Source: a virus
Virus record (IMG/VR): IMGVR_UViG_3300029267_000808
Span: 1 to 22,915 of that record
Strand: one strand, 5' to 3'
Length of the DNA stretch: 22,915 bases
Below are positions 1 to 22,406 of the stretch, piece after piece. The position numbers and the translations under genes are program-made. The first letter of the stretch is position 1; the number at the start of each line of letters is the position of its first letter. Below the pieces are notes generated by a model that worked only from the letters and a program-made list of their open reading frames with translations, had not been told where the DNA came from and searched no databases.

Positions 1-332
1 CCAAGGCAGTCAGAGAATACACAGGCTGGGAGAGGAAGCCAGTCTTCCGCAGAGGATTCTACGAGGGAGCCGTTCAGATTATAAGAGCTCGGCTCTACGA
101 ACAGTGGGAGACTCTGAGGCAGCAGTCAGTCAAGTCCACGGCTCTGGTGGTAAGCAACAGTGAAGCCATCCAGGAGTACATCCAGGTCAACTTCCCCAAG
201 GTCCGTGAAGCCAGAGTCCATCAGGGCACCAGTTCTATCGACGGTCTGATAGCAGGCAGAGAGGCAGGAAAGCAGGTGGACATATCCATCAGGCGCAAAC
301 TGGAAACGACCACCGTTCCGAGGTTAAGCTAA
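1..332 (+). CDS. DUF2786/DUF7168-like protein, 3' end only
   Basis: The frame is open from the first bases of the window to a TAA at 330-332, so this is the C-terminal part (about 109 residues visible) of a longer gene that starts upstream. The visible part has a basic segment (REYTGWERKPVFRRGFYEGA) followed by a helical stretch, and ends in a Gly/Ala segment (GLIAGREAGKQVDISIRRKL). This pattern resembles the C-terminal domain that follows DUF2786 in many phage and bacterial proteins of unknown function; that assignment is from memory of the family and is moderate. The stop overlaps the helicase start by one base (TAATG at 330-334), so the two are probably one transcript with coupled translation. 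An internal GTG at 147 has no clear ribosome binding site and is not the real start. Confidence 0.6.
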   Translation, partial: KAVREYTGWERKPVFRRGFYEGAVQIIRARLYEQWETLRQQSVKSTALVVSNSEAIQEYIQVNFPKVREARVHQGTSSIDGLIAGREAGKQVDISIRRKLETTTVPRLS

Positions 333-3055
333 TGGCAGAACGAATCACAGTAAGGCAGGCAGCGGCATCAGTTCTCAGCCGCTGTGATGGTGCCAGAACT
401 TTGGATGGGGTAGGATTCAACAAGTTTGATTCCTACTTCGTCCGCTCTCTGATGGAGCAATCCAGTCTGTCACCTAAGCAGGAGAGGGCTCTGCACAAAC
501 TGCTGCGGAAGTACATCAGGCAGCTTGAGTCCTATGGCATCGACTACAATCAGATTATTAAGCCACCTGAGGATACTGGAGAATCTACCTCAGAGGCCGC
601 TAGAGCCAAGCTAGGGCCGATGGAACTGGAGCTTAGTGAAATACCATACCAGAAAGGAAAGCGGCTGGCTCTGCACTCACACAAATCCTTCAGAGAGGAA
701 GCTAAGGCCATCCACGGAGCCAGGTGGCAGCCAGACATGAAAGTCTGGTACTACTACCCATGTATTGAGTCTCTGGAAGGATTGCTTCCGTATCTGGTAG
801 ACAAGACCATCAAACCCAGTCCCGAGGCTAGAGAAGTTCTGGTCGGTCTGTTCAAGCAGGCAAAGCAGAGGGAGGCAGTCCAGAACATCAAGGACGGCAA
901 CGGTCTGTCAGAGAAGCCACCAGTCAAGACCAAGCCATATAAGCACCAGGACGATGCCTTCCAGGTAGGAGTGGCAGTTGACCAGTCAGCGCTACTGATG
1001 GAACAGGGTACAGGCAAGACTCTGTCGGCCATCGGAGTTGCAGGCTATCGCTTTCAGAAGGACCAAATCCAGAAGCTCCTGGTAGTCTGCCCTCTGTCTG
1101 TGGTCCCGGTCTGGCACAGCGAGTTCCAGAAGCACGCAGACTTCCCATACAGGCTCTTGGACCTCACCAAGAAGGATAATGACCAGAGAAAGCTGGACCT
1201 CACGTTCTCATCTCCTGGGCGGCTTCTGGTAGCACTCATCAACTATGAGTCCACCTGGAGATGCGATGACCTGCTTCTGAAGTGGAAGCCAGACATGATA
1301 GTGGTTGACGAATCTCAGAAGATTAAGAACGGAAGAGCTAAGCAGTCCAAAGCTCTGTTCAAGCTAGGAGACCAGACCACCTACAAGATGATTCTGTCTG
1401 GAACGCCCATAACTCAGGGTCCTCTGGATACCTGGTCGCAATACAGATTCCTCAATCCAGACATATTCGGCAGACGGTTCATCTCACACAGAGACAGGTA
1501 TGCCATCATGGGAGGCTACGGTGGCTATCAGGTGCTTGGCTACAGGCATCTGGAAGAACTAGCCAGCAAGGCCCACTCTGTGGCTTTCAGAGTTACCAAG
1601 GCCGAGGCACTGGACTTACCAGAGACAACAGACCAAGAGCTCATGGTCAATCTGTCATCTGAGACGATGGACATATACCAGCAGATGGAAGAAGAGTTCA
1701 TGGTCAAATTCTCTGACACTGAAGTCGCTACCGCCCCCATCATCCTGACCCAGTTACTCAGGCTGCAACAAATTACAGGTGGATTCTTACCTACCGAGGA
1801 CAAAGTAGTCAAGGAGTTCGACTCTGCCAAACTGAATGCCCTGAAGGAACTACTGGAGGACCTGCCATCGGAGAAGAAGGTGGTCATATTCGCCAGGTTC
1901 GTTCCAGAGATTGAAGCCATCCGGAAGGTCAGTGAGGCTCTCGGGCGGAATCCAGTCACACTCTACGGAGCCACCAAGGACCGAGGCAAGGTGGTCTCTG
2001 ACTTCCAGGATGACCCGAAGGTCAAGGATATCATAATCCAGATACAGACCGGAGGACTGGGTATCACTCTGACTGCCGCGGATACGGCGGTCTTCTATTC
2101 CACCACCTTCAGCTTTGCAGACTATGACCAGGCTAAAGCCAGACTGCACAGAATAGGGCAGAGGAAGCCAGTGACCTACATCCATATTCTGGCATCTGGC
2201 ACTGTGGACGAGGAGGTCCTCCAGATACTAAAGGATAAGGGGGACATGGCTACCCAGATTGTAGACAGGCTGAAGGGAATAAATAAACTAAAGTACCACC
2301 AAAATAGCCCATCCAGACCATTTACAAAGGGCCCTCAGTCCCTTATAATGTCAGAGGATACCACAAAAGGAGGAACCAAATTGATAGGACTGGATAACAA
2401 AGCAAAAGGTGGATGGCACTGGGATGAGACCACCGGCAAAATTATCAGAAGGGAGGAAGACGGTTCAGTATATTGCTTGCGGAAGGCGGACACACTGGAG
2501 GAGGCTCAGGCAGTGATTGCCAAACTGCATGAGGACCAATTAGCCAGACTGGGCGGAGCCCAGAATAAAACGAAGGAGGATACAATGGCTAAGAACAAGA
2601 AAGGCAAAGGAACCAAGGAGACCAAGGTCACCAAGAAACAGGCAGTCCAGGAACCCGAGGAAGTAATGGAAGAGGCAGTTGAGGAACTGGAAGAGGTAGT
2701 CGAGGAAGAGACCACTGAGACTCCAGAACCCAAGGCCACCAAGAAGTCCAAGAAAGCTCGGAAGGCAGAGAAGGCAGCTCAGGCAGAAGAACCTGCCCCG
2801 GCAGCCAAATCCAAGAAAGCCAAGAAAGCTGAAAAGGCAACCCCCGCTCCGGAGACTAAGAAAGCAGCCAAGGCAACTGACGCCAGCACTGAAATCTCCG
2901 CTAAAGAACTGGCAGCCGAACTGGACATCGACCCCAAGGTCCTCAGGAAGACTCTCAGAGATATGTTCCCGGACCACGAATCCAAAGAACGGTGGGTCTG
3001 GAAACGAGGCTCCAAGGAACTGGAACGGCTAATCAAGAAGCTCCAGAAAAGTTAG
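332..3055 (+). CDS. SNF2-family DNA helicase/translocase with Lys/Ala-rich HTH-like C-terminal extension
   Basis: A 907-residue frame. Residues about 90-150 resemble a small domain seen upstream of SNF2 motors (GARWQPDMKVWYYYP). The ATPase core starts near residue 200: Walker A MEQGTGKT (about 223-230), motif II as DESQ (about 325), motif III SGTP (about 355). The second RecA lobe has QTGGLGITL (about 572) and LHRIGQ (about 606). It should be an ATP-driven dsDNA translocase of phage DNA metabolism. The motor ends near residue 650. The rest is a short domain (GWHWDETTGKI), acidic and Lys/Ala-rich repeats, and a terminal HTH-like segment. A promoter and two strong ribosome sites lie inside the last third, so the C-terminal part may be one or two separate genes that share the frame. 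Start chosen from the TAATG overlap with the upstream gene. Confidence 0.85.
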   Translation: MAERITVRQAAASVLSRCDGARTLDGVGFNKFDSYFVRSLMEQSSLSPKQERALHKLLRKYIRQLESYGIDYNQIIKPPEDTGESTSEAARAKLGPMELELSEIPYQKGKRLALHSHKSFREEAKAIHGARWQPDMKVWYYYPCIESLEGLLPYLVDKTIKPSPEAREVLVGLFKQAKQREAVQNIKDGNGLSEKPPVKTKPYKHQDDAFQVGVAVDQSALLMEQGTGKTLSAIGVAGYRFQKDQIQKLLVVCPLSVVPVWHSEFQKHADFPYRLLDLTKKDNDQRKLDLTFSSPGRLLVALINYESTWRCDDLLLKWKPDMIVVDESQKIKNGRAKQSKALFKLGDQTTYKMILSGTPITQGPLDTWSQYRFLNPDIFGRRFISHRDRYAIMGGYGGYQVLGYRHLEELASKAHSVAFRVTKAEALDLPETTDQELMVNLSSETMDIYQQMEEEFMVKFSDTEVATAPIILTQLLRLQQITGGFLPTEDKVVKEFDSAKLNALKELLEDLPSEKKVVIFARFVPEIEAIRKVSEALGRNPVTLYGATKDRGKVVSDFQDDPKVKDIIIQIQTGGLGITLTAADTAVFYSTTFSFADYDQAKARLHRIGQRKPVTYIHILASGTVDEEVLQILKDKGDMATQIVDRLKGINKLKYHQNSPSRPFTKGPQSLIMSEDTTKGGTKLIGLDNKAKGGWHWDETTGKIIRREEDGSVYCLRKADTLEEAQAVIAKLHEDQLARLGGAQNKTKEDTMAKNKKGKGTKETKVTKKQAVQEPEEVMEEAVEELEEVVEEETTETPEPKATKKSKKARKAEKAAQAEEPAPAAKSKKAKKAEKATPAPETKKAAKATDASTEISAKELAAELDIDPKVLRKTLRDMFPDHESKERWVWKRGSKELERLIKKLQKS
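2321..2349 (+). promoter_or_regulatory. sigma70-type promoter inside the helicase frame
   Basis: TTTACA at 2321-2326, a 17-base spacer, then a perfect TATAAT at 2344-2349. The block TATAATGTCAGAG (2344-2356) is identical to the early promoter at 21365-21377, which also has TTTACA upstream. Transcription would begin near 2356, just before a strong Shine-Dalgarno (AGGAGG at 2368-2373). Confidence 0.65.
2381..3055 (+). CDS. possible nested gene: C-terminal part of the helicase frame, TTG start
   Basis: This is an alternative product of the helicase frame. AGGAGG at 2368-2373 sits 7 bases before a TTG at 2381, immediately downstream of the internal promoter at 2321-2349. The product would be 224 residues: a small domain (GWHWDETTGKIIRREEDG, then a helix), the Lys/Ala-rich repeats and the terminal HTH-like domain, without any motor motif. 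The helicase homology ends about 30 codons earlier, and the stretch between (about 2280-2345) reads more like an intergenic spacer than protein. An earlier gene boundary whose stop codon was lost, fusing two genes in frame, would explain all of this. It could also simply be the helicase C-terminus with a fortuitous signal. Confidence 0.45.
   Translation: MIGLDNKAKGGWHWDETTGKIIRREEDGSVYCLRKADTLEEAQAVIAKLHEDQLARLGGAQNKTKEDTMAKNKKGKGTKETKVTKKQAVQEPEEVMEEAVEELEEVVEEETTETPEPKATKKSKKARKAEKAAQAEEPAPAAKSKKAKKAEKATPAPETKKAAKATDASTEISAKELAAELDIDPKVLRKTLRDMFPDHESKERWVWKRGSKELERLIKKLQKS
2585..3055 (+). CDS. nested gene: Lys/Ala-rich, histone H1-like protein with C-terminal HTH-like domain
   Basis: AAGGAGGA at 2574-2581 lies a few bases before ATG 2585, in the helicase frame; this is as good as any start in the window. 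The 156-residue product begins MAKNKKGKG, then has an acidic run (EPEEVMEEAVEELEEVVEEE), then repeats of the type KSKKARKAEKA / KSKKAKKAEKA, and ends in a folded domain (about the last 50 residues: ELAAELDIDPKVLRKTLRDM, then a W-x-W strand) that looks like a winged-helix or Lsr2-tail-type DNA-binding domain. A basic tail plus an HTH suggests a nucleoid-like DNA-binding protein; that function is inferred. The DNA repeats TCCAAGAAAGC near 2746 and 2810 reflect the protein repeat. It may be made both alone and as the helicase tail. Confidence 0.55.
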   Translation: MAKNKKGKGTKETKVTKKQAVQEPEEVMEEAVEELEEVVEEETTETPEPKATKKSKKARKAEKAAQAEEPAPAAKSKKAKKAEKATPAPETKKAAKATDASTEISAKELAAELDIDPKVLRKTLRDMFPDHESKERWVWKRGSKELERLIKKLQKS

Positions 3056-3078
3056 CTCTGCCAGTATCCACAGACCAG

Positions 3079-3119
3079 AATAAGGGGGCTCAGCCTAAAA
3101 ACTGCAGCCCTCTTATTTT
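3079..3119. terminator. hairpin terminator after the helicase
   Basis: AATAAGGGGGCT (3079-3090) pairs with AGCCCTCTTATT (3106-3117) with a single mismatch in 12; CAG/CTG can extend the stem into the A-rich loop. On the + strand it is followed by TTG after a T-rich stem end. It lies 24 bases after the helicase stop and could also stop leftward late transcripts. Confidence 0.65.
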
Positions 3120-3163
3120 GTGCCTGAAATTGGCTGTCTGAGGTCCAAATCTAGGCCTCTCAA

Positions 3164-3207
3164 ATTCAGTCTGAATAGTAATACACATGCCTATTCCAGG
3201 CTGGAAT
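3164..3207. repeat. pair of related palindromes, centres 30 bp apart
   Basis: ATTCAG-T-CTGAAT (3164-3176) and ATTCCAG-G-CTGGAAT (3193-3207) are both perfect inverted repeats around one central base, related in sequence, with centres at 3170 and 3200, about three helical turns apart. This geometry suits a dimeric DNA-binding protein. Function unknown. Confidence 0.45.
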
Positions 3208-3400
3208 CAGTCCAGGCTGCTTTTCTGTCTGAAGTCTGCCATCAGTTATCCAGTAGCAGCTTTCTGGTCTATCACCCTTTCTGCAATCCCTGCTCAGAGA
3301 GCGTAAGATGAGTGCCAGAGGCCTTATCCCTACCCCGCAAGTATTTTACTATTGCTGCTCGAAAATAGGGCTCTAATTTTGGACGCCCAGATACAAGGAT

Positions 3401-8598: not shown

Positions 8599-9200
8599 TA
8601 TCTACCCAACCTTGTCTCTTCTCTGGAGATGGTCTGCATCTGCCTGGAAAACTTCCGAGCATCCGCCTGCGACCCTGTAAAGGCTTGAGAGTTGAAGTTC
8701 ACTGTTTGAGTAGCTCCACCTGACATAGAGGGGGCAGTTTTAGTAGCCACAGCTATGTTGGCTGGAGTCTCAGAACTCCCGGCCTTAGAGAGTGCTATGA
8801 TTCCCGCAGTGGCACCAGCTGCCAGACCAAGGCCTATAGCCAGCTTGCCCCATCCGATAGGACCAGCCAGAGCTGCTACGAGAGCCTGAACTATAGCCAG
8901 ACCACGAAGAGTTGTAATCATGCTGCGAATCATAGGTAGAGCAGCGATTATGGCACCAGTCGTCGACATGATAGCACCAGCTGAGGTTACGAATATCGCT
9001 GCTGTCTTGCCAGCTTCACCTCCTAGCTGGTTCATCAGACTACCCACGGCAGTCAGTGCTCCACCAGTGGCCGTCAGCGTCTGCTGGAACTGTTGCATAT
9101 TGAAGGCAGTAGCCTGAACATTCTGACCCATGACCTTCATTTTGTCGGAGGCTTCATCTCGCATTCTGGCGACTATAGTGATACTTGCTTCGTCTGCCAT
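8598..9200 (-). CDS. short tail tape measure protein
   Basis: 200 residues. An N-terminal helical, Gln/Met-rich region (MRDEASDKMKVMGQNV, FQQTLTATGGALTAVG) is typical of tape measure proteins; residues about 60-155 hold hydrophobic, Ala/Gly-rich segments (AIFVTSAGAIMSTTGAIIAA, GKLAIGLGLAAGATAGIIAL) like the membrane-associated part of larger tape measures. Its position after the tail chaperone pair and before the hub gene is the standard one. Tape measure length sets tail length at roughly 0.15 nm per residue, so the tail would be only about 30 nm, far shorter than for the usual 600-1500 residue proteins. The start has GGAGG 5 bases upstream. I see no frameshift that would explain the small size. 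Confidence 0.7.
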   Translation of the reverse strand: MADEASITIVARMRDEASDKMKVMGQNVQATAFNMQQFQQTLTATGGALTAVGSLMNQLGGEAGKTAAIFVTSAGAIMSTTGAIIAALPMIRSMITTLRGLAIVQALVAALAGPIGWGKLAIGLGLAAGATAGIIALSKAGSSETPANIAVATKTAPSMSGGATQTVNFNSQAFTGSQADARKFSRQMQTISREETRLGR

Positions 9201-9232
9201 GTCAACCTCCTGTAGATTAAAGACTTATTCAT
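9173..9232 (-). CDS. possible 19-codon leader frame overlapping the tape measure start
   Basis: AGGAGG (9242-9237), which overlaps the stop of the chaperone fusion, sits 4 bases before ATG 9232. The frame (MNKSLIYRRLTWQTKQVSL) ends at TAG 9175-9173, inside the tape measure gene but in another frame, and spans the tape measure ribosome site. It may couple tape measure translation to the chaperone gene, or be a leftover start site. Peptide function is unlikely. Confidence 0.25.
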   Translation of the reverse strand: MNKSLIYRRLTWQTKQVSL

Positions 9233-9240
9233 AGTTCCTC

Positions 9241-9860
9241 CTAGGGGTCATAGGAGCCACCAAACTGAGCGACGTTCTTGACGTTCCTGTATACCAGCAT
9301 CTTCTCGAGTAGAGGTTCAGGTATGCTGTCTAGAACATCAGGTGGGAATCCTAGTTCCATCACCAGTATAGCCTCCTTATAGTCATGCGGAACTGCGAAC
9401 TTCTGCGGCAGCTTCAATGCCAAGAACAGAGATTCCGCTACCTCTCTGTGCCGCTCCCTGCTAAAGGGACTTGAGTGAATACCTCATCGACCTTCTGCTT
9501 AAGAGCCTTATACTTACTCTCTGGTAGATTGTCCAGAATCTCCCTGGATACTGGAGCTGAGCCTGGTTCCAATCTGAGCTCTGTAGCTGTCTTCTCACTG
9601 AAGGTCCAGGATAATACCTGACCCAGGATACAGGCATCATCCACAGCTACGAGGTCTGCCTTGCTCCAGTCAATACTCACCTCAGTTGCTTTCACCTCAG
9701 CCTTAACAACCTTGCCATCGGCTATCTTGACTGTGGTATCTGGATACACCAGAGCTGGTCGAGTAATCTCCTCGATTCTTCTCTGAGTTCCATGTCTCAT
9801 CTCAGTGAGCATGATGGCCAAATCACCATCCCCCATATCGATTGTTATTTCCCGTTCCAT
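9241..9860 (-). CDS. tail assembly chaperone fusion (gpG-T type) made by -1 frameshifting
   Basis: The two frames 9860-9438 and about 9470-9241 join through a slippery CCCTTTA at 9468-9462, read in the zero frame as C CCT TTA. A -1 slip goes from TTA 9464-9462 to AGC beginning again at 9462 and continues as SRERHREVAESLFLALKLPQ to TAG at 9243-9241, about 206 residues in all. Lambda gpG/gpGT and many siphophages make their tail chaperones this way, and the place, just before the tape measure, is the same. The chaperone fusion binds tape measure and tube protein during tail assembly but is absent from virions. The 60-codon frame starting with TTG at 9423 therefore need not be a separate gene; it has no ribosome site of its own. 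Confidence 0.75.
9438..9860 (-). CDS. tail assembly chaperone, short form (gpG-like)
   Basis: 140 residues when started at ATG 9860, which has AAGGAGG 7 bases upstream; an ATG 18 bases earlier (9878) contains that ribosome site within its own codons (MEGGTN) and is not the start. The protein has an acidic, beta-rich N-terminal half (EREITIDMGDGDLAIML) and a helical C-terminal half (REILDNLPESKYKALKQKVD). It would be the abundant product, with the longer frameshifted form made at a low ratio. It lies directly after the tail tube gene and before the tape measure gene. Confidence 0.65.
   Translation of the reverse strand: MEREITIDMGDGDLAIMLTEMRHGTQRRIEEITRPALVYPDTTVKIADGKVVKAEVKATEVSIDWSKADLVAVDDACILGQVLSWTFSEKTATELRLEPGSAPVSREILDNLPESKYKALKQKVDEVFTQVPLAGSGTER
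9462..9468 (-). promoter_or_regulatory. -1 ribosomal frameshift site CCCTTTA
   Basis: X XXY YYZ heptamer in the correct zero-frame phase (GTC CCT TTA), eight codons before the zero-frame stop. The -1 frame is open across it for over 20 codons before the first candidate start of the second frame. No strong downstream hairpin was seen. Confidence 0.7.
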
Positions 9861-16869: not shown

Positions 16870-17637
16870 TCAATCGTCATATACCCCTCTATGCCATGCG
16901 CCGTCTCGAAAGACCTCTAGATGACAGCGACAGTTACCTCGACAAGTAACTTGGCCCGCTGGCACAGTGGGTAGTGCATCCCAGTTTTCATATTCGCCAG
17001 CCAGCTCTGGACAACCATAGAATCCAGGACTATGCTGACAGTGCTTAGCTCGTGGGTCAAGAACCCAGCGGATTGGCTCAAGTGGTTCTCCACTCTTTCT
17101 GCGTTCCTGCTCTCTGGTCTTGCCGATAGTCTTCTGAGTCTCAAATATCATGACCCAGAATCCTCCAGCATACTGAGGTGGCATAGCACGAGCAGTATTG
17201 AAGGCAGTTCTGAGTGCTGCAGCATTGGTCGCCGTTCCTCTAGCTATGTCAGCAGTCAGTTTAGCACCAATGGCTGGAATGAGTGCAGCAGCAATCATGT
17301 TATTGCCCTCAGCCTTACGCTCCTCAGCTAGTCTCTTAACCGCTGGAGTGTCCGACCTGCTACCTCCGGACAGATTCTTGGCTATATCTATTCCTCGGTC
17401 ATACACCTCCTTCAGTTTTATCTCTAGCTCTCTTAGAGCACGTTCGAATACAGACTGCTGTTCTTCCACAGTGTGACCAGACCTTGCGAGTTCAACCAGC
17501 CTTCGTCTGGTCTTAGCACTCCACTCGTCGAAGACCTTAGTCAGCCTTCTCTGCTGCCTGTTAGTCGCCTGCTCCCAGTTACCTGGTGACAGACGTTGCT
17601 TCATTCCACCTGGTAGCTTATTTGTGAACTGGTGCAT
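16870..17637 (-). CDS. Mu gpF / SPP1 gp7-like minor head protein
   Basis: 255 residues. The C-terminal third has the classic Mu F pattern: WVLDPRAKHCQHSPGFYGCP, then YENWDALPTVPAGQVTC and GNCRCHLEV, with four or more Cys and a His likely to bind zinc. The N-terminal two thirds is helical (QQRRLTKVFDEWSAKTRRRL). These proteins are minor head components that attach to the portal and may be injected with DNA. The gene overlaps the 3' end of the portal gene by 20 bases. Family assignment is secure. Confidence 0.85.
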   Translation of the reverse strand: MHQFTNKLPGGMKQRLSPGNWEQATNRQQRRLTKVFDEWSAKTRRRLVELARSGHTVEEQQSVFERALRELEIKLKEVYDRGIDIAKNLSGGSRSDTPAVKRLAEERKAEGNNMIAAALIPAIGAKLTADIARGTATNAAALRTAFNTARAMPPQYAGGFWVMIFETQKTIGKTREQERRKSGEPLEPIRWVLDPRAKHCQHSPGFYGCPELAGEYENWDALPTVPAGQVTCRGNCRCHLEVFRDGAWHRGVYDD

Positions 17638-19021
17638 TGCTTCCTATTCCTTTTACGTCAAATATCCCTGGAGTCGCTGGCATCTCTGCGTCTCTAGGCA
17701 TCCCCCGTTCTTCATCTGGAAGGTCGGGCCAATCAATCAGTTCTCTCAGGTGGTCCTCATCCACATCAGTAGGTGTAAATATCTTCGCGCCTGAGGCTTG
17801 ATTCAACGTTGCTATCAGAGAACCTATGTCAACCTTGCCGGGAGGCATCCAGACTATCTTCGGCAGGTCTGTCATACCCGGGAAGTAGTTGAATGAGAAC
17901 AGATAGGGGACAAGCTGCTGGTTCCAAGCTTCCACAACCGACTCCTGTATTGCACCTATAGCTAGATTGAAGAAGTCTTGTGAGCCCCTTACCAGAGCCT
18001 GTGTCCCTACCTGTTCCATCCCCAGCATAAGAAACTGGGCGAACATCCTCATCAGGATTTCCTTCTTCTTGCGCTCAATAACTGAGCCGATGTCATACAT
18101 CTTCGAACTGGAGCCGTATGGGTTTATCTTCACACCAGGAGGAGTGATGAGGTATTCATTCTCATCTCGTCTCATGCCCTTCAGGGCTTCCTCCAGGTCG
18201 TCCTCATCCTGCTCAGTGATATTGCCCTCAGGCAGTTCTGCCACTGGCATACCACCAACATCTCTCTCGACACCTATGGCCTCGAAGACCTCGAAGTCTC
18301 GAAGCATTCTGTAGGGCCAATGCAGAGACAGCAGAATCGAGTGACCCTCAGGATTGCCCTTCCTACCTCGGAATGTAGCGTGTACGCATTTAGACAGAGG
18401 TATGGGTATCAGGTCATTGGTATTGGGGTCTCGCTGTATCATCTCGATGACCTCATCCTTCCTGTCACTGTCGAAGGTCCACCGTTCCAGTGTCTCCTGG
18501 CCCCGTGGGTCTACGTTCCTTAGCCAGAATCTACCGTCGTTCCTCTTCTCCAGTACAATCTCTGCGTTGGCCCAACCGAAGTCGATGGATGACAGCATAT
18601 CCTCAGCGTGTGAGTTCCAGGTCTGTCTGTGCATGTGTGTCATGTTCTGGTGCAGCCACTGTGCAGCTGCTATGTCTCCAGGCGTCTGTGCCTCAGCTGG
18701 CTCAGTGACAAACGGAGCCTTGAGCAGAGGCAGCTTGACTGCATCCAGCATAGTGGCGACGATATAATAGTCTCGCATCTCCAGGTATTGCTTGACTGCC
18801 CGGCTCCAAGTCTTGAACTCCTTCTGCCAGTTCTCATATACAATACCAGTGCGATGCTTCAGACCTCTAACGCCGATACCAGACTTGCCGTTGCTATTGG
18901 TCTGTGCTTTCTGGTATCTGGTGTTGCTCTTCTTCTCCGTAGGTTCCTTCGTAGCTGTAGCAGTCTCAGCCTGAGCCTTACGGGCGAAGAAGTGGTTTCT
19001 CTTGTCTCTCTTATTACTCAT
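17618..19021 (-). CDS. portal protein (DUF935/Mu gp29-like)
   Basis: 467 residues. A basic N-terminal tail is followed by portal signatures: GIVYENWQKEFKTWSRAVK, the segment with MRDYYIVATMLDAV, HAEDMLSSIDFGWANAEIVL, and the central GHSILLSLHWPYRMLRDFEV, with ALVRGSQDFFNLAIGAIQES near the C-terminus. This matches the Mu gp29/DUF935-type portal. It forms the dodecameric ring at one vertex through which DNA is packaged and released. The ATG overlaps the TerL stop by one base (TAATG). Function is well supported by its place between TerL and Mu F and by these motifs. Confidence 0.8.
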   Translation of the reverse strand: MSNKRDKRNHFFARKAQAETATATKEPTEKKSNTRYQKAQTNSNGKSGIGVRGLKHRTGIVYENWQKEFKTWSRAVKQYLEMRDYYIVATMLDAVKLPLLKAPFVTEPAEAQTPGDIAAAQWLHQNMTHMHRQTWNSHAEDMLSSIDFGWANAEIVLEKRNDGRFWLRNVDPRGQETLERWTFDSDRKDEVIEMIQRDPNTNDLIPIPLSKCVHATFRGRKGNPEGHSILLSLHWPYRMLRDFEVFEAIGVERDVGGMPVAELPEGNITEQDEDDLEEALKGMRRDENEYLITPPGVKINPYGSSSKMYDIGSVIERKKKEILMRMFAQFLMLGMEQVGTQALVRGSQDFFNLAIGAIQESVVEAWNQQLVPYLFSFNYFPGMTDLPKIVWMPPGKVDIGSLIATLNQASGAKIFTPTDVDEDHLRELIDWPDLPDEERGMPRDAEMPATPGIFDVKGIGSNAPVHK

Positions 19022-20364
19022 TAGCTCCTCCAGCTCGATGTCTTCTTGCCTCTGCGGACCCCACCGGAGCCCTTGACATATCTGCCGAGTAGCAGTTCTG
19101 TCAGCAGCCAGACTAATGCGTCCAGCCTGTCAGGACTCTTCTCGCCGGGTACCCATTCACAGAGCTGGTCTTCCAATTCGGGGAAGAACCCAACGTGATG
19201 TACTCGGCCTTGCTCGTATAAGGCAGAGACAGGCTCGGCTCTGGAATACTTACCCCTGGTGGCATGCAACTTCTTGACCAGAATGTTGGGGTCAATGGTC
19301 GTGATGTTGGATTCCACCATGTCTCCACCGTTATTGACCTCAGCGACTATTCTGTCGCCTTTGAATGTAGTGTAGTCCGAGACAGCAGCTGTACCCCAGC
19401 CTTGAGGCGAGGCTCGGAGTGAACTGTCTGACAGTATAAAGGCATGAACCTGTTTGTTGACGTAGCCGATTCCACCTGTAATGATACCAGTCTCAGCGGA
19501 TTCCGATGTATTGCTGACTGCTGGGTCAATACTGGTGACCACAGTAAAGAGGGGTGGATGCTTGTGGACTCTGTGCTGCTCCAGTTCCTCTCGTTTCCAT
19601 AAGGCGTCTGGATTGTCACCTAGGGTCTCACCTGCCAGCTCCTGACGGCCCAGCCTCGTTCCTTCATACCGTTCCAGGATGAACTTCAAGAACTGCGGAT
19701 TCAGATTGTCCTTGTTCTCCAGTGTGTGAGTTCTGGTAACTACTACGTCGTTATCTCGTTCCAGCTTCTTTATAATAGGTATAGCTCTAGGAGTGGTGGT
19801 AACGATGCACTGCGGTGCGTCTCCAATGCGGAGGCCCATCATCAGGTTGTCCCACATCTCCTGCGGGTTCTCAAATTTGGCTAGCTCGTCTACCCAAGCC
19901 TTCATGTGCTGTGGGCCCCTGAGCTGGTCAGGCTCATCACCGGAATACGTAATAGCCAGAACGCCATTCGGCCATACCAGATGTCTCTTGGTCGGCTCGT
20001 ACTTCGGCATGAACCAGGGTGGACTGCATTGCATGATGGAACTGTCACCAGTCTCCACTATGATGTCTCGAATGTCTGCCTTGGTCCGTCCTACCAGTGC
20101 AATCGGACTGTATCCGTCCTTCGCCCACTGGATAACTGTCTCAGAACCAACACGAGTCTTGCCTCCACCTCTGCCTGACAGCAGTAGCCAGATATACCAG
20201 TCAATGGGTGCAGTCTGATTCTCTCTGCGCCAGAGGCTCCAGTCATATAATAAGGAAAGCGCCTCTTCGTCCGACAGACTGGTCACCAGCTCCACTGCCT
20301 TGGCTCGCGGAAGCGAAGTTACCAGCTCCTTGAAGGACTGTCGCTCCTCAATGGCTACTGCCAT
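19021..20364 (-). CDS. terL: terminase large subunit (TerL)
   Basis: 447 residues. The ATPase domain has a Walker A SGRGGGKT at about 63-70, Walker B within KAWVDE at about 155-160, and the coupling motif TTTPR at about 189-193. The nuclease domain has Asp residues in SIDPAVSN (D280), VNNGGDMV (about D348) and PDRLDALVW (about D412 and D415). It drives DNA into the prohead through the portal and cuts concatemers. A GGAGGG ribosome site precedes the ATG. The stop overlaps the portal start by one base. All expected motifs are present. Confidence 0.95.
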   Translation of the reverse strand: MAVAIEERQSFKELVTSLPRAKAVELVTSLSDEEALSLLYDWSLWRRENQTAPIDWYIWLLLSGRGGGKTRVGSETVIQWAKDGYSPIALVGRTKADIRDIIVETGDSSIMQCSPPWFMPKYEPTKRHLVWPNGVLAITYSGDEPDQLRGPQHMKAWVDELAKFENPQEMWDNLMMGLRIGDAPQCIVTTTPRAIPIIKKLERDNDVVVTRTHTLENKDNLNPQFLKFILERYEGTRLGRQELAGETLGDNPDALWKREELEQHRVHKHPPLFTVVTSIDPAVSNTSESAETGIITGGIGYVNKQVHAFILSDSSLRASPQGWGTAAVSDYTTFKGDRIVAEVNNGGDMVESNITTIDPNILVKKLHATRGKYSRAEPVSALYEQGRVHHVGFFPELEDQLCEWVPGEKSPDRLDALVWLLTELLLGRYVKGSGGVRRGKKTSSWRS

Positions 20365-20466
20365 TCGTTATCCCTCCTGCTTTCTGGGGCCCCCATGTGC
20401 GGTGAGGGGTAGGATAGGGTGACCCTCTTCTGATAAAACACGGCCTGGGGGGTAGAGCGTCCTGTG

Positions 20467-20895
20467 TCAGTCCTCATCATCATCCCCCTGGTCCTCTTCA
20501 GCGGTCTTGAGTATCTTGTTGAGTCTCTGGAGCAGGACGTCCTTCGGGTCTAGTTCTCCTGCGGCATGAACTGTCGCGTCGAGCTCAACGGATTCCTTAG
20601 GCTTGCCCTCGATGCGGTCCAGGACTATAGCCAGCAGTTTGTTGTCAATGGTCAGACCTTGCCTCAGCTCACGTACTACCTTAATAGCTATGAGTTCCAG
20701 TTCTGAGGCTTCCATGAGCGAACCGTCCGCTCGCCTGAATCTCTTGCGCTTGGTCAGCTCGGCGCGTAGCTTGTCAGTGAAGCAGAGTTCCTTAGGAGGT
20801 CGACCGTTGGGATTGTTGGTCTTCCCTTTCTCGGTCTCGCTCAAACGAGTGTCGCCGGTGCGCGTACTCTTGTTTTTCTCACTCTTTTTACTCAT
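20467..20895 (-). CDS. terminase small subunit-like (DUF5681/NPNGRP type)
   Basis: 142 residues from ATG 20895. It opens with a very basic tail (MSKKSEKNKSTRTGDTR), then NNPNGRPPKELCFTDKLRAE, the motif of phage DUF5681-like proteins used as terminase small subunits, then a helical region (ELELIAIKVVRELRQGL and LLAIVLDRIEGKPKESVELD) and an acidic tail. It lies directly upstream of TerL, and would bind packaging sites. A TTG 12 bases upstream (20907) would give a longer form, but GGAG 6 bases before the ATG supports the start chosen. First gene of the late operon. Confidence 0.7.
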   Translation of the reverse strand: MSKKSEKNKSTRTGDTRLSETEKGKTNNPNGRPPKELCFTDKLRAELTKRKRFRRADGSLMEASELELIAIKVVRELRQGLTIDNKLLAIVLDRIEGKPKESVELDATVHAAGELDPKDVLLQRLNKILKTAEEDQGDDDED

Positions 20896-20924
20896 CAGCT
20901 TCTCCAAGTTTTGAATCTGATAAC

Positions 20925-20954
20925 AGTATATAAGACCAGTTATCCAGCTGTAAA
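20925..20954 (-). promoter_or_regulatory. late operon promoter upstream of the small terminase
   Basis: On the minus strand TTTACA (20954-20949), an 18-base spacer, and TATACT (20930-20925). The -35 is the same TTTACA as in the two + strand promoters. Transcription would start near 20918, about 23 bases before the TerS ATG. Confidence 0.55.
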
Positions 20955-20958
20955 TGGG

Positions 20959-21010
20959 TTAAAGTCCACTCACAGGAGCCTTCCATTATATATATTAAAG
21001 TCCGGAGCCT
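20959..21010. repeat. composite direct repeat next to the late promoter
   Basis: TTAAAGTCC at 20959-20967 and 20995-21003, and GGAGCCT at 20975-20981 and 21004-21010. The elements are 7 bases apart in the first copy and adjoining in the second. They lie just upstream of the late promoter -35, a fitting site for a regulator. Confidence 0.5.
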
Positions 21011-21030
21011 GCCGTCCTAGCGCCTGTCGC

Positions 21031-21188
21031 GTGTCGCAGTATTATAAATAATACATGCGACGCACGTCTGTCTGGTGCTCTCACTCGACGCGACGAAGCT
21101 CGGCGACACGCTTGCCAGATAGGAATAGTGTCGCGAGTGTCGCCTAAGTGTCGCCAAGCTCAAAATATGGCAAAAAGGGCCGCGACAC
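21031..21188. repeat. cluster of six GTGTCGC repeats (iteron/operator-like)
   Basis: Exact GTGTCGC on the + strand at 21031, 21128, 21137 and 21148, and on the minus strand at 21103-21109 and 21182-21188. The three at 21128-21154 are direct repeats spaced 9 and 11 bases. Two copies extend to GTGTCGCC-R-AGCT in inverted orientation (21096-21109 and 21148-21161) and can pair over 12 of 14 positions. Related GCGAC/GTCGC half-sites lie at 21025-21030, 21057-21061 and 21090-21095. By chance about 0.02 exact copies are expected in this span. Confidence 0.75.
21033..21061. repeat. 29-base palindrome with AT core
   Basis: GTCGCA-GTATTAT-AA-ATAATAC-A-TGCGAC: 13 pairs per arm with one unpaired A (21055) and an AA centre. 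Its outer arms are GTCGC half-sites of the repeat cluster. This is the shape of an operator or an origin cruciform. Confidence 0.65.
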
Positions 21189-21199
21189 CCCCGTTTTTG
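21171..21199. terminator. terminator-like hairpin in the control region
   Basis: CAAAAAGGG (21171-21179) pairs with CCC-G-TTTTTG (21190-21199), one bulge, and a loop containing one GTGTCGC copy. On the minus strand the stem ends in UUUUUG after CCC; on the + strand it ends in CGTTTTTG. The GC part is only three pairs, so the call is weak. Confidence 0.35.
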
Positions 21200-21290
21200 A
21201 GCCTAAGTGAGCATTTTGGGGCCTTCGGAACCCTTGATAGTGAACCTTTCTGCCAGTCCCAGCGCAATCAGAGGGATAAGTAGGTCAAAA

Positions 21291-21324
21291 GTACTGGGAA
21301 TACAGGGTACTAAAATAGGGAATA
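21291..21324 (+). repeat. GTACT / GGGAATA direct repeats upstream of the early promoter
   Basis: GTACT-GGGAATA at 21291-21302, then GTACT at 21307-21311 with GGGAATA at 21318-21324. The second copy ends 16 bases before the early -35, where an activator or repressor could act. Confidence 0.35.
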
Positions 21325-21340
21325 AAGTCTGTCCAACACA

Positions 21341-21370
21341 TTTACATCCAAATTATTAAGGTGATATAAT
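21341..21370 (+). promoter_or_regulatory. early promoter
   Basis: TTTACA at 21341-21346, an 18-base spacer, and TATAAT at 21365-21370, with the run TATAATGTCAGAG to 21377 shared exactly with the promoter in the helicase frame. The first gene starts at 21405 after an AAGGAGG site at 21394-21400. Confidence 0.7.
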
Positions 21371-21404
21371 GTCAGAGTACGCATACAGATAGGAAGGAGG
21401 ACAG

Positions 21405-21707
21405 ATGAACAAGGCACTGGCAGCCACTTTCGCAATCCTGTTATCTCTGGACGGCGCTCTCACCTACTGGGCAATCAACACCGGCCAATTCACCGAGCAG
21501 AACCCACTCATGGCACCTATGGCTGGAAGCCCGGTCTTCGTTCTGTATAAGCTGGCCACAGCAGTCATCGCTATCCTTATTATAGGCTGGCTTACCAGTA
21601 AGGTCCCCAGAATGCGCCGGCTAACCAATCTCGGCATGGTTGCAGGCAGTCTGCTCTATGTAGCAGTTCTGGCAACGAACCTCTGGGAAGTATTCACCAC
21701 TATATAA
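21405..21707 (+). CDS. DUF5658-like membrane protein
   Basis: 100 residues. Three hydrophobic segments (about 4-24, 45-65 and 77-97). The motif near the first loop, LDGALTYWAIN, then EQNPLMAPM, matches the D...LT...G...E.NP.M signature of DUF5658-type small membrane proteins; function unknown. First gene of the early rightward cluster, right after the early promoter, with AAGGAGG before the ATG. The family call rests on this pattern alone. A role in superinfection exclusion or host membrane change is possible but not shown. Confidence 0.6.
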   Translation: MNKALAATFAILLSLDGALTYWAINTGQFTEQNPLMAPMAGSPVFVLYKLATAVIAILIIGWLTSKVPRMRRLTNLGMVAGSLLYVAVLATNLWEVFTTI

Positions 21708-21722
21708 TTGGAAGGAGGAACT

Positions 21723-22224
21723 ATGGCAAAGTACAAGCAGACAGAGGAACAATTCACAGTCGAGGAAGGCCTTGACACCTGTGAAATGCCTTGACACCTG
21801 TGAAATTGAATCTCTCCGCGACGAGATGACAGAATGGCGCGACAATATGGATGGCACCGGCCTGGAGAACACCCAGAAGTATGAGGCCGTCTCAGAAGCC
21901 GCGGACCAGCTGGACAACGTCGACAGTATCACCTTCGACGACCTTGACTCAGTAATGGAAGAGGCCGAACTGGCAGATGACATCAAGGCTCTGACCTACA
22001 AAGCTATTCTGATGGTTCCTAGAAGCCGCAGACAGTCTTCGTCCAGGTCTGTCAGACTGAGCAATGCAGTATCCACTCTGACTGGTGCACTGGACTGCAT
22101 AGAGGCTTATCTGGCAGAGCTACCGGAATCAGATAAGGTCACGGACATCCAGACAGAGGTGGACAACCTCAGAGGATTGGTGGAGGAGATGGACGGCGTT
22201 GAGTTTCCAGGGATGTTCGGCTAA
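21723..22224 (+). pseudogene. acidic early protein gene disrupted by a 19-bp tandem duplication
   Basis: ATG 21723 follows AAGGAGG. The frame reads MAKYKQTEEQFTVEEGLDTC and stops after 23 codons at TGA 21792-21794. The 19-base unit GCCTTGACACCTGTGAAAT occurs twice in tandem (21769-21787 and 21788-21806); deleting one copy restores one frame of about 160 codons that runs through LDTCEIESLRDEMTEWRDN to FPGMFG at 22224. The TTG at 21772 of the second part has no ribosome site of its own. The intact protein is acidic and helical, with a Ser/Arg patch (RSRRQSSSRSVRLSNAVS) and no recognised domain. Resembles small acidic phage proteins; function unknown. Confidence 0.75.
21769..21806 (+). repeat. 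19-bp exact tandem duplication
   Basis: Two adjoining copies of GCCTTGACACCTGTGAAAT (21769-21787, 21788-21806). It shifts the frame of the surrounding gene by one base (19 = 18 + 1). Confidence 0.9.
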
Positions 22225-22406
22225 TGAACAGAGAACCAGTATACACACCGGAGGAAGTGGCCAAGTATCTGAAGGTCAATGTCATCACTATCGTTCGGAG
22301 TCTGAGAAGCGGAGACCTGAAAGGATTCAAAATAGGTCTCAGGCTCTGGAGAATAACCGAGAGCAGTCTGAATGACTTCATGAAAGGAGGAACAGGTGGT
22401 AACTAA
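22224..22406 (+). CDS. MerR/excisionase-type HTH protein
   Basis: 60 residues. It starts at the ATG overlapping the previous stop (TAATG at 22222-22226) and shows the winged-HTH pattern of HTH_17/excisionase proteins: YTPEEVAKYLKVNVITIVRS, then the wing with GFKIGLRLWRITESSLNDF. It should bind DNA, perhaps as a recombination directionality factor or a regulator. No integrase was seen in the window, so the regulator role is as likely. Domain assignment is secure; the exact job is not. Confidence 0.8.
   Translation: MNREPVYTPEEVAKYLKVNVITIVRSLRSGDLKGFKIGLRLWRITESSLNDFMKGGTGGN

Follow-up and report, generated by a model that had tools for sequence, protein, structure and literature searches.

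A GTGTCGC repeat array between the divergent early and late genes of an uncultured tailed phage: a candidate iteron-type replication origin

Clusters of short repeats are common in phages, and the array described here is a fresh example of a known sort. In the c2-type lactococcal phages, early and late gene blocks diverge from a non-coding gap, and this gap holds the replication origin (PMC7150918). The pac site of SPP1 has direct repeats that run across the terS promoters and the start of the gene (PMC4737164). The proteins 186 Apl and BldC assemble cooperatively, in head-to-tail fashion, on short direct repeats spaced by about one turn, with Apl bound between two early promoters (PMC7498355, PMC5859096). 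In Gram-positive phages, late activators act through four direct repeats that precede late promoters (PMC13123087).

The window, that is the whole stretch of 22,915 bases analyzed here, comes from an uncultured tailed phage and covers part of its genome; neither end is closed. The late genes lie on the minus strand from 20,895 down to 3,485 and encode a probable small terminase subunit (TerS), the large subunit (TerL), portal, protease, major capsid and tail proteins; the early genes begin at 21,405 and occupy the plus strand up to the right end of the window. A second plus-strand block at 1-3,311 carries a SNF2-type helicase and would extend the early operon if the genome were circular or circularly permuted. 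A lysine-rich repeat in the C-terminal part of this helicase (2739-2865), which is coding, is the window's other strong local repeat signal. The GTGTCGC array lies in the gap between the divergent units (Table 1). Judging from its sequence, it is most likely a cluster of specific sites for an oligomerizing phage-encoded DNA-binding protein. We tentatively read it as a replication origin of the iteron type, situated in the control region from which early and late units diverge (probability about 0.4). We place this reading narrowly ahead of a cooperative operator, with a packaging site third.

Table 1. Positions of the array, of the features around it, and of arrays in other genomes
Feature	Position	Strand or arrangement	Basis
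GTGTCGC array, exact and one-mismatch copies	21024..21188	both strands	motif count
Inverted pair of extended sites, AGCTCGGCGACAC / GTGTCGCCAAGCT	arms 21097-21109, 21148-21160	38 nt apart	92% complementary
Non-coding gap, terS (-) to first early gene (+), 509 bases	20896..21404		ORF list and sequence
Predicted late promoter, TTTACA-18-TATACT, 10/12	20925..20954	-	sigma70 consensus match only
Predicted early promoter, TTTACA-18-TATAAT with TG extension, 11/12	21341..21370	+	consensus match only
TATAAT without -35, possible alternative late -10	20985..20990	-	read from sequence
Large terminase subunit TerL	19021..20364	-	phrog_979, E 6.5e-36
Probable small terminase subunit TerS, DUF5681-like	20467..20895	-	PF18932, E 2e-5, slightly below cut-off; adjoins TerL
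First early gene, DUF5658 membrane-like protein	21405..21707	+	Pfam PF18902
Third early gene, 60-aa HTH_17/excisionase-family protein, candidate array binder	22224..22406	+	PF12728, TIGR01764, phrog_66
Arrays inside O-type initiator genes of other contigs	L020 3526-3665, L025 1466-1616, L039 3380-3527, L049 3517-3633, L060 5897-6012, L071 2850-2948		
Loci of the L333 genome	L274, L276, L287, L290, L323, L327, L328, L330, L344, L374		

Organization and significance of the array

A motif count confirmed the six exact GTGTCGC copies, four plus and two minus, that a preliminary description of this DNA had reported. They lie within 21031-21188, at 21031, 21128, 21137 and 21148 on the plus strand and at 21103 and 21182 on the minus strand. 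The spacing of 9 and 11 bp between three plus-strand direct repeats and the inverted orientation of two extended copies, which have 13-bp arms, were confirmed as well. The remaining exact copies are 25-72 bp off or inverted, the heptamer itself is asymmetric, and the array includes two members with one mismatch (CTGTCGC at 21024 on the plus strand and GCGTCGC at 21057 on the minus strand). The array is compact, occupies both strands, is non-coding and lies between both predicted promoters, neither of which it overlaps (about -106 to -270 for the late promoter and about -189 to -346 for the early one). With the alternative late -10, the first two copies (21024-21037) would be placed at about -46 to -59, immediately upstream of where its -35 would be. 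At 47% AT the array is not AT-rich, and it has a 17-bp AT patch inside; the best 40-bp stretch within 150 bp of it has 70% AT, which is in the top 0.2% of the window, and lies over the late leader. Rfam and tRNA searches gave no match.

The clustering of GTGTCGC is non-random. The whole window holds 9 copies against 1.8 expected with dinucleotides preserved, and only three of them are in the ~22.7 kb outside the array (5238 on the plus strand, 14710 on the minus strand, and 20849 on the plus strand, the last inside terS). With six of the nine copies in the array, the even scatter that the preliminary description had named as its counter-case is excluded within the 22.9-kb fragment. In 300 dinucleotide shuffles of the whole window, the top heptamer count per 164 bp was 3 (291 shuffles) or 4 (nine shuffles), against 6 observed, and in 2000 shuffles of the intergenic region no heptamer ever exceeded three copies per 164 bp. 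Poisson tails amount to 2e-13 for the exact copies and to 7e-10 with up to one mismatch, both for a motif and an interval picked post hoc, and the shuffles are therefore the fairer measure. The array searches used varied thresholds, of 4 or 5 copies and spans of 164-250 bp, that were set while working, and the final array rule was applied solely in the shuffle test.

The sole contig found with the same gene order (L009, from IMG/VR and apparently from the same sample) is a strain of the same phage. It is 99.5% identical over 17,168-22,232 and carries the array unchanged, the closest differences being at 20,997 and 20,999, and it is too close to show selection. This strain is without 19 bp at 21788-21806, near the listed start of a 150-aa early ORF, so that the start of this ORF is probably downstream, or the strains differ. 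Searches with the helicase and with the first early gene gave no further relative.

The candidate replication origin

Several copies of a short motif within about 200 bp, as in an iteron origin, are present in the array. In the origin reading, the copies would be bound cooperatively by an initiator whose gene would lie in the part of the early operon that the fragment lacks, and the bound initiator would wrap or bend the DNA and open an AT-rich stretch nearby. The replication machinery would then be loaded at the opened DNA, and replication would start where early and late transcription diverge.

The origin is ranked first mainly because of the base rate in a calibration set. Contigs fetched for a related TerL, together with a few TerS or portal relatives, none of them picked for repeats, were scanned for any heptamer with at least 5 copies in about 170 bp. 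The scan returned 13 arrays, with a different motif each time, and these are not 13 independent events, since some of the contigs are mutually related. Six of the 13 lie inside lambda-O-type initiator genes, identified by Phage_rep_O above cut-off in L020, L025, L039 and L049, by Phg_2220_C and phrog_428 'replication initiation protein' in L071, and by eye only in L060. In several of these arrays the copies occupy both strands and are spaced by 9-13 and 22 bp, as in the window. Two others are at terS, upstream of the gene in L209 and, in L020, inside a gene that matches phrog terS families. The array of L053, as read by eye, comes after a frame that resembles a VirE-type primase and before VRR-NUC-like and SNF2 genes, and the remaining four are coding repeats or have no assigned class. 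The calibration suggests that probable origins can be found in uncultured phage contigs simply by scanning for dense arrays of any heptamer. The second reason for ranking the origin first is the c2-type layout, in which the origin occupies the divergent early/late gap (PMC7150918).

Counting against the origin, the calibration arrays are mostly inside the initiator gene and not in a divergent gap, and the array of the window is not AT-rich and has no full DnaA box. Profile searches of the 22.9-kb fragment, which lacks the remainder of the early region, recognized no initiator or replisome-loader gene. The preliminary description had seen neither a repressor nor an initiator; this goes too far, given the small HTH_17 DNA-binding protein of the early operon. 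The GC skew that it proposed to measure does have its cumulative minimum at 21-22 kb, yet this is uninformative, because gene orientation alone would give a minimum there.

Alternative readings

The pair of readings put forward at the outset, an iteron origin or a cooperative operator, is still the leading pair, and a packaging site should join it. The operator, which we hold to be somewhat unlikely, would have a small winged-helix protein bound head-to-tail on one-turn direct repeats and switching the flanking early and late promoters. Its binder would be the HTH_17 protein or an unseen regulator, which would bend or coat the DNA and repress or activate. The asymmetric heptamer and the three direct repeats at 9 and 11 bp speak for such an operator, with Apl and BldC as precedent for short direct repeats about one turn apart (PMC7498355, PMC5859096). 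The array is also flanked by the two predicted promoters; however, it is on or beside neither of these consensus matches, and its copies occur in both orientations with gaps of 25-72 bp. The early operon has an HTH_17/excisionase-family gene above curated cut-offs (PF12728 at 45.3 bits and also NCBIfam 'excise' TIGR01764), and the protein matches phrog_66 'excisionase and transcriptional regulator' as well. Proteins of the HTH_17 family are, however, widespread among phages and bacteria. Other contigs with GTGTCGC arrays show no enrichment of HTH_17 genes (2 of 25 above cut-off, against 6 of 27 controls), and no association between HTH_17 and the array was found across such contigs. If the array is an operator, it would mark the early/late transcription switch, and the 60-aa protein would be the candidate switch.

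At a packaging initiation site (pac or the binding part of cos), a TerS ring would bind repeats beside its own gene and TerL would cut nearby. We consider this distinctly unlikely for the window. Repeats are indeed found at terS, with the array upstream of the gene and one more copy in it; the direct repeats at terS in the SPP1 pac site are a precedent (PMC4737164), and the two calibration arrays of L209 and L020 have a similar position. However, the array is more than 120 bp upstream of the terS start and has no copy over the promoter, SF6 TerS binds pac DNA with little sequence specificity (PMC4737164), and phages with a related TerL are mostly without an array at terS. The one clear TerS relative, in L209 (58% over 77 aa), does have a strong array directly upstream of its gene, but of another motif (AGTGATAAC-type), and has no GTGTCGC cluster.

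The GTGTCGC cluster is also absent in the TerL relatives, which apart from L009 are at most 66% identical and differ in gene order too. The head module is common to L216, L217 and the window phage (portal 68-71% identity); L216 has no array, no divergent layout and a different terminase module. Same-motif clusters were sought in relatives sharing only TerL, only TerS (L209) or the head module (L216/L217), and none was found.

Further features were observed in these contigs. L209 has at 1-290 tandem dyad-like units of ~21 bp (AGTGATAACGTTGTCC), directly upstream of its TerS, and L020 has at 9180-9349 five CCATCGT-type repeats in the 5' part of terS, possibly a pac site. In L216 and L223, a head module near that of the window (portal 68%, capsid 74%) is combined with a different terminase module, which includes an HNH-like gene, and tail-type genes lie between terminase and portal; this layout is apparently a terminase exchange.

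Short repeats are also found at transposon ends and in the arms of attachment sites. A foreign element in the window, whether transposon end, miniature repeat element or integrase attachment site (the repeats then being its arm sites), is very improbable: some bacterial chromosomes have dispersed GTGTCGC arrays with inverted ends and the window encodes an excisionase-family protein, but no integrase or transposase was recognized in the window, and inspection by eye revealed no transposase next to those chromosomal arrays that were examined. The specific idea of an IS21 or other transposon end was rejected, because no transposase was seen by eye and the repeat spacing differs, the direct repeats of IS21 being 23 bp apart (PMC10122671).

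Arrays in other genomes and comparison with described systems

GTGTCGC arrays are present in many unrelated viral contigs and in some chromosomes. It is nevertheless hardly probable that the heptamer is an iteron core recognized by a single protein family, with initiators that are related or have converged, across unrelated phages and replicons (TerS/exonuclease-bearing marine-type contigs, DUF3987/primase prophages and the window phage) and in the dispersed chromosomal arrays of a Dehalococcoidia and an alphaproteobacterial genome. A control heptamer, CGCTGTG, gave 16 raw matches against 21 for GTGTCGC, and dense arrays made up 2 of the 16 and 10 of the 21, respectively, a modest difference (Fisher p 0.035). 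For any heptamer, the base rate was 54 heptamer-array pairs in 1.16 Mb, and many arrays per heptamer are therefore expected in 2.9 million contigs. Among 398 bacterial genomes there were 0 GTGTCGC-array matches, against 3 for the reversed control. Because of the base rate and the 398-genome result, recurrence of GTGTCGC is no evidence of a shared protein, and a shared recognition code was rejected, with recurrence about as the base rate predicts and none of the 398 genomes matching.

Individual arrays of this kind were observed in several settings. The genome of an uncultured Dehalococcoidia (L333, OY282365; loci in Table 1) has 217 matches to a pattern of three GTGTCGC copies, with 0 for the reversed-pattern control; the plus strand by itself accounts for at least 22 separate places. 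Its arrays are 10-11-bp tandem repeats of the GTGTCGCATAAG type with an inverted copy ~65 bp on, and they look like a dispersed repeat family. One alphaproteobacterial-type MAG (L258, L298, L315 and L332) and also L309 have a recurrent intergenic architecture, with three GTGTCGC at ~10 bp, a ~57-bp gap, and TGTCGCTGTCGCAAGTGTCGC; the MAG has 11 pattern matches, one per contig, and 0 for the control. In a group of related AT-rich phage contigs (L105, L107, L127, L143, L148, L156, L200 and L202), an exonuclease-like gene is separated from the terS region by large two-sided GTGTCGC(A) arrays. Five prophage-like loci (L203, L229, L236, L238 and L260) have GTGTCGCA arrays next to genes for a DUF3987 helicase and a CHC2-type primase; these arrays are possible origins, and four of them are close downstream of the DUF3987 gene.

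Among described systems, the SPP1/SF6 pac sites resemble the window in having direct repeats that adjoin terS (PMC4737164), and differ in that their repeats cover the terS promoters and start, whereas the window cluster is farther upstream with a single copy in terS. The operators of 186 Apl and BldC share short asymmetric direct repeats of about one turn and a small HTH protein in the early operon. The seven repeats of Apl are evenly spaced between promoters, however, and the repeats favored by BldC are AT-rich, whereas the window copies are GC-rich, irregularly spaced and distributed over both strands. The late-activator sites of TP901-1 Alt and phi13 Ltr are likewise a direct-repeat cluster upstream of a late promoter (PMC13123087), but at about -107 to -32. 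Relative to the predicted late start, the main block of the array lies at about -185 to -270 and the nearest exact copy at about -113, and the position would agree only with the alternative -10 at 20990-20985.

The proposed origin compares with two further systems. Lambda-O-type origins likewise have at least 5 copies of a short motif within ~150 bp, often on both strands and with one- or two-turn spacing; their iterons lie inside the gene for a Phage_rep_O-family initiator, whereas the window array is non-coding and no initiator was recognized in the fragment. The c2-type (Ceduovirus) origin has the same setting as the array, a non-coding gap with divergent early and late blocks (PMC7150918). 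The c2-type origins differ in that they support replication without phage proteins and surround early promoters. If the array is an origin, replication of this phage would begin at the early/late divide as in c2, without the initiator-embedded iterons found in contigs with related terminases.
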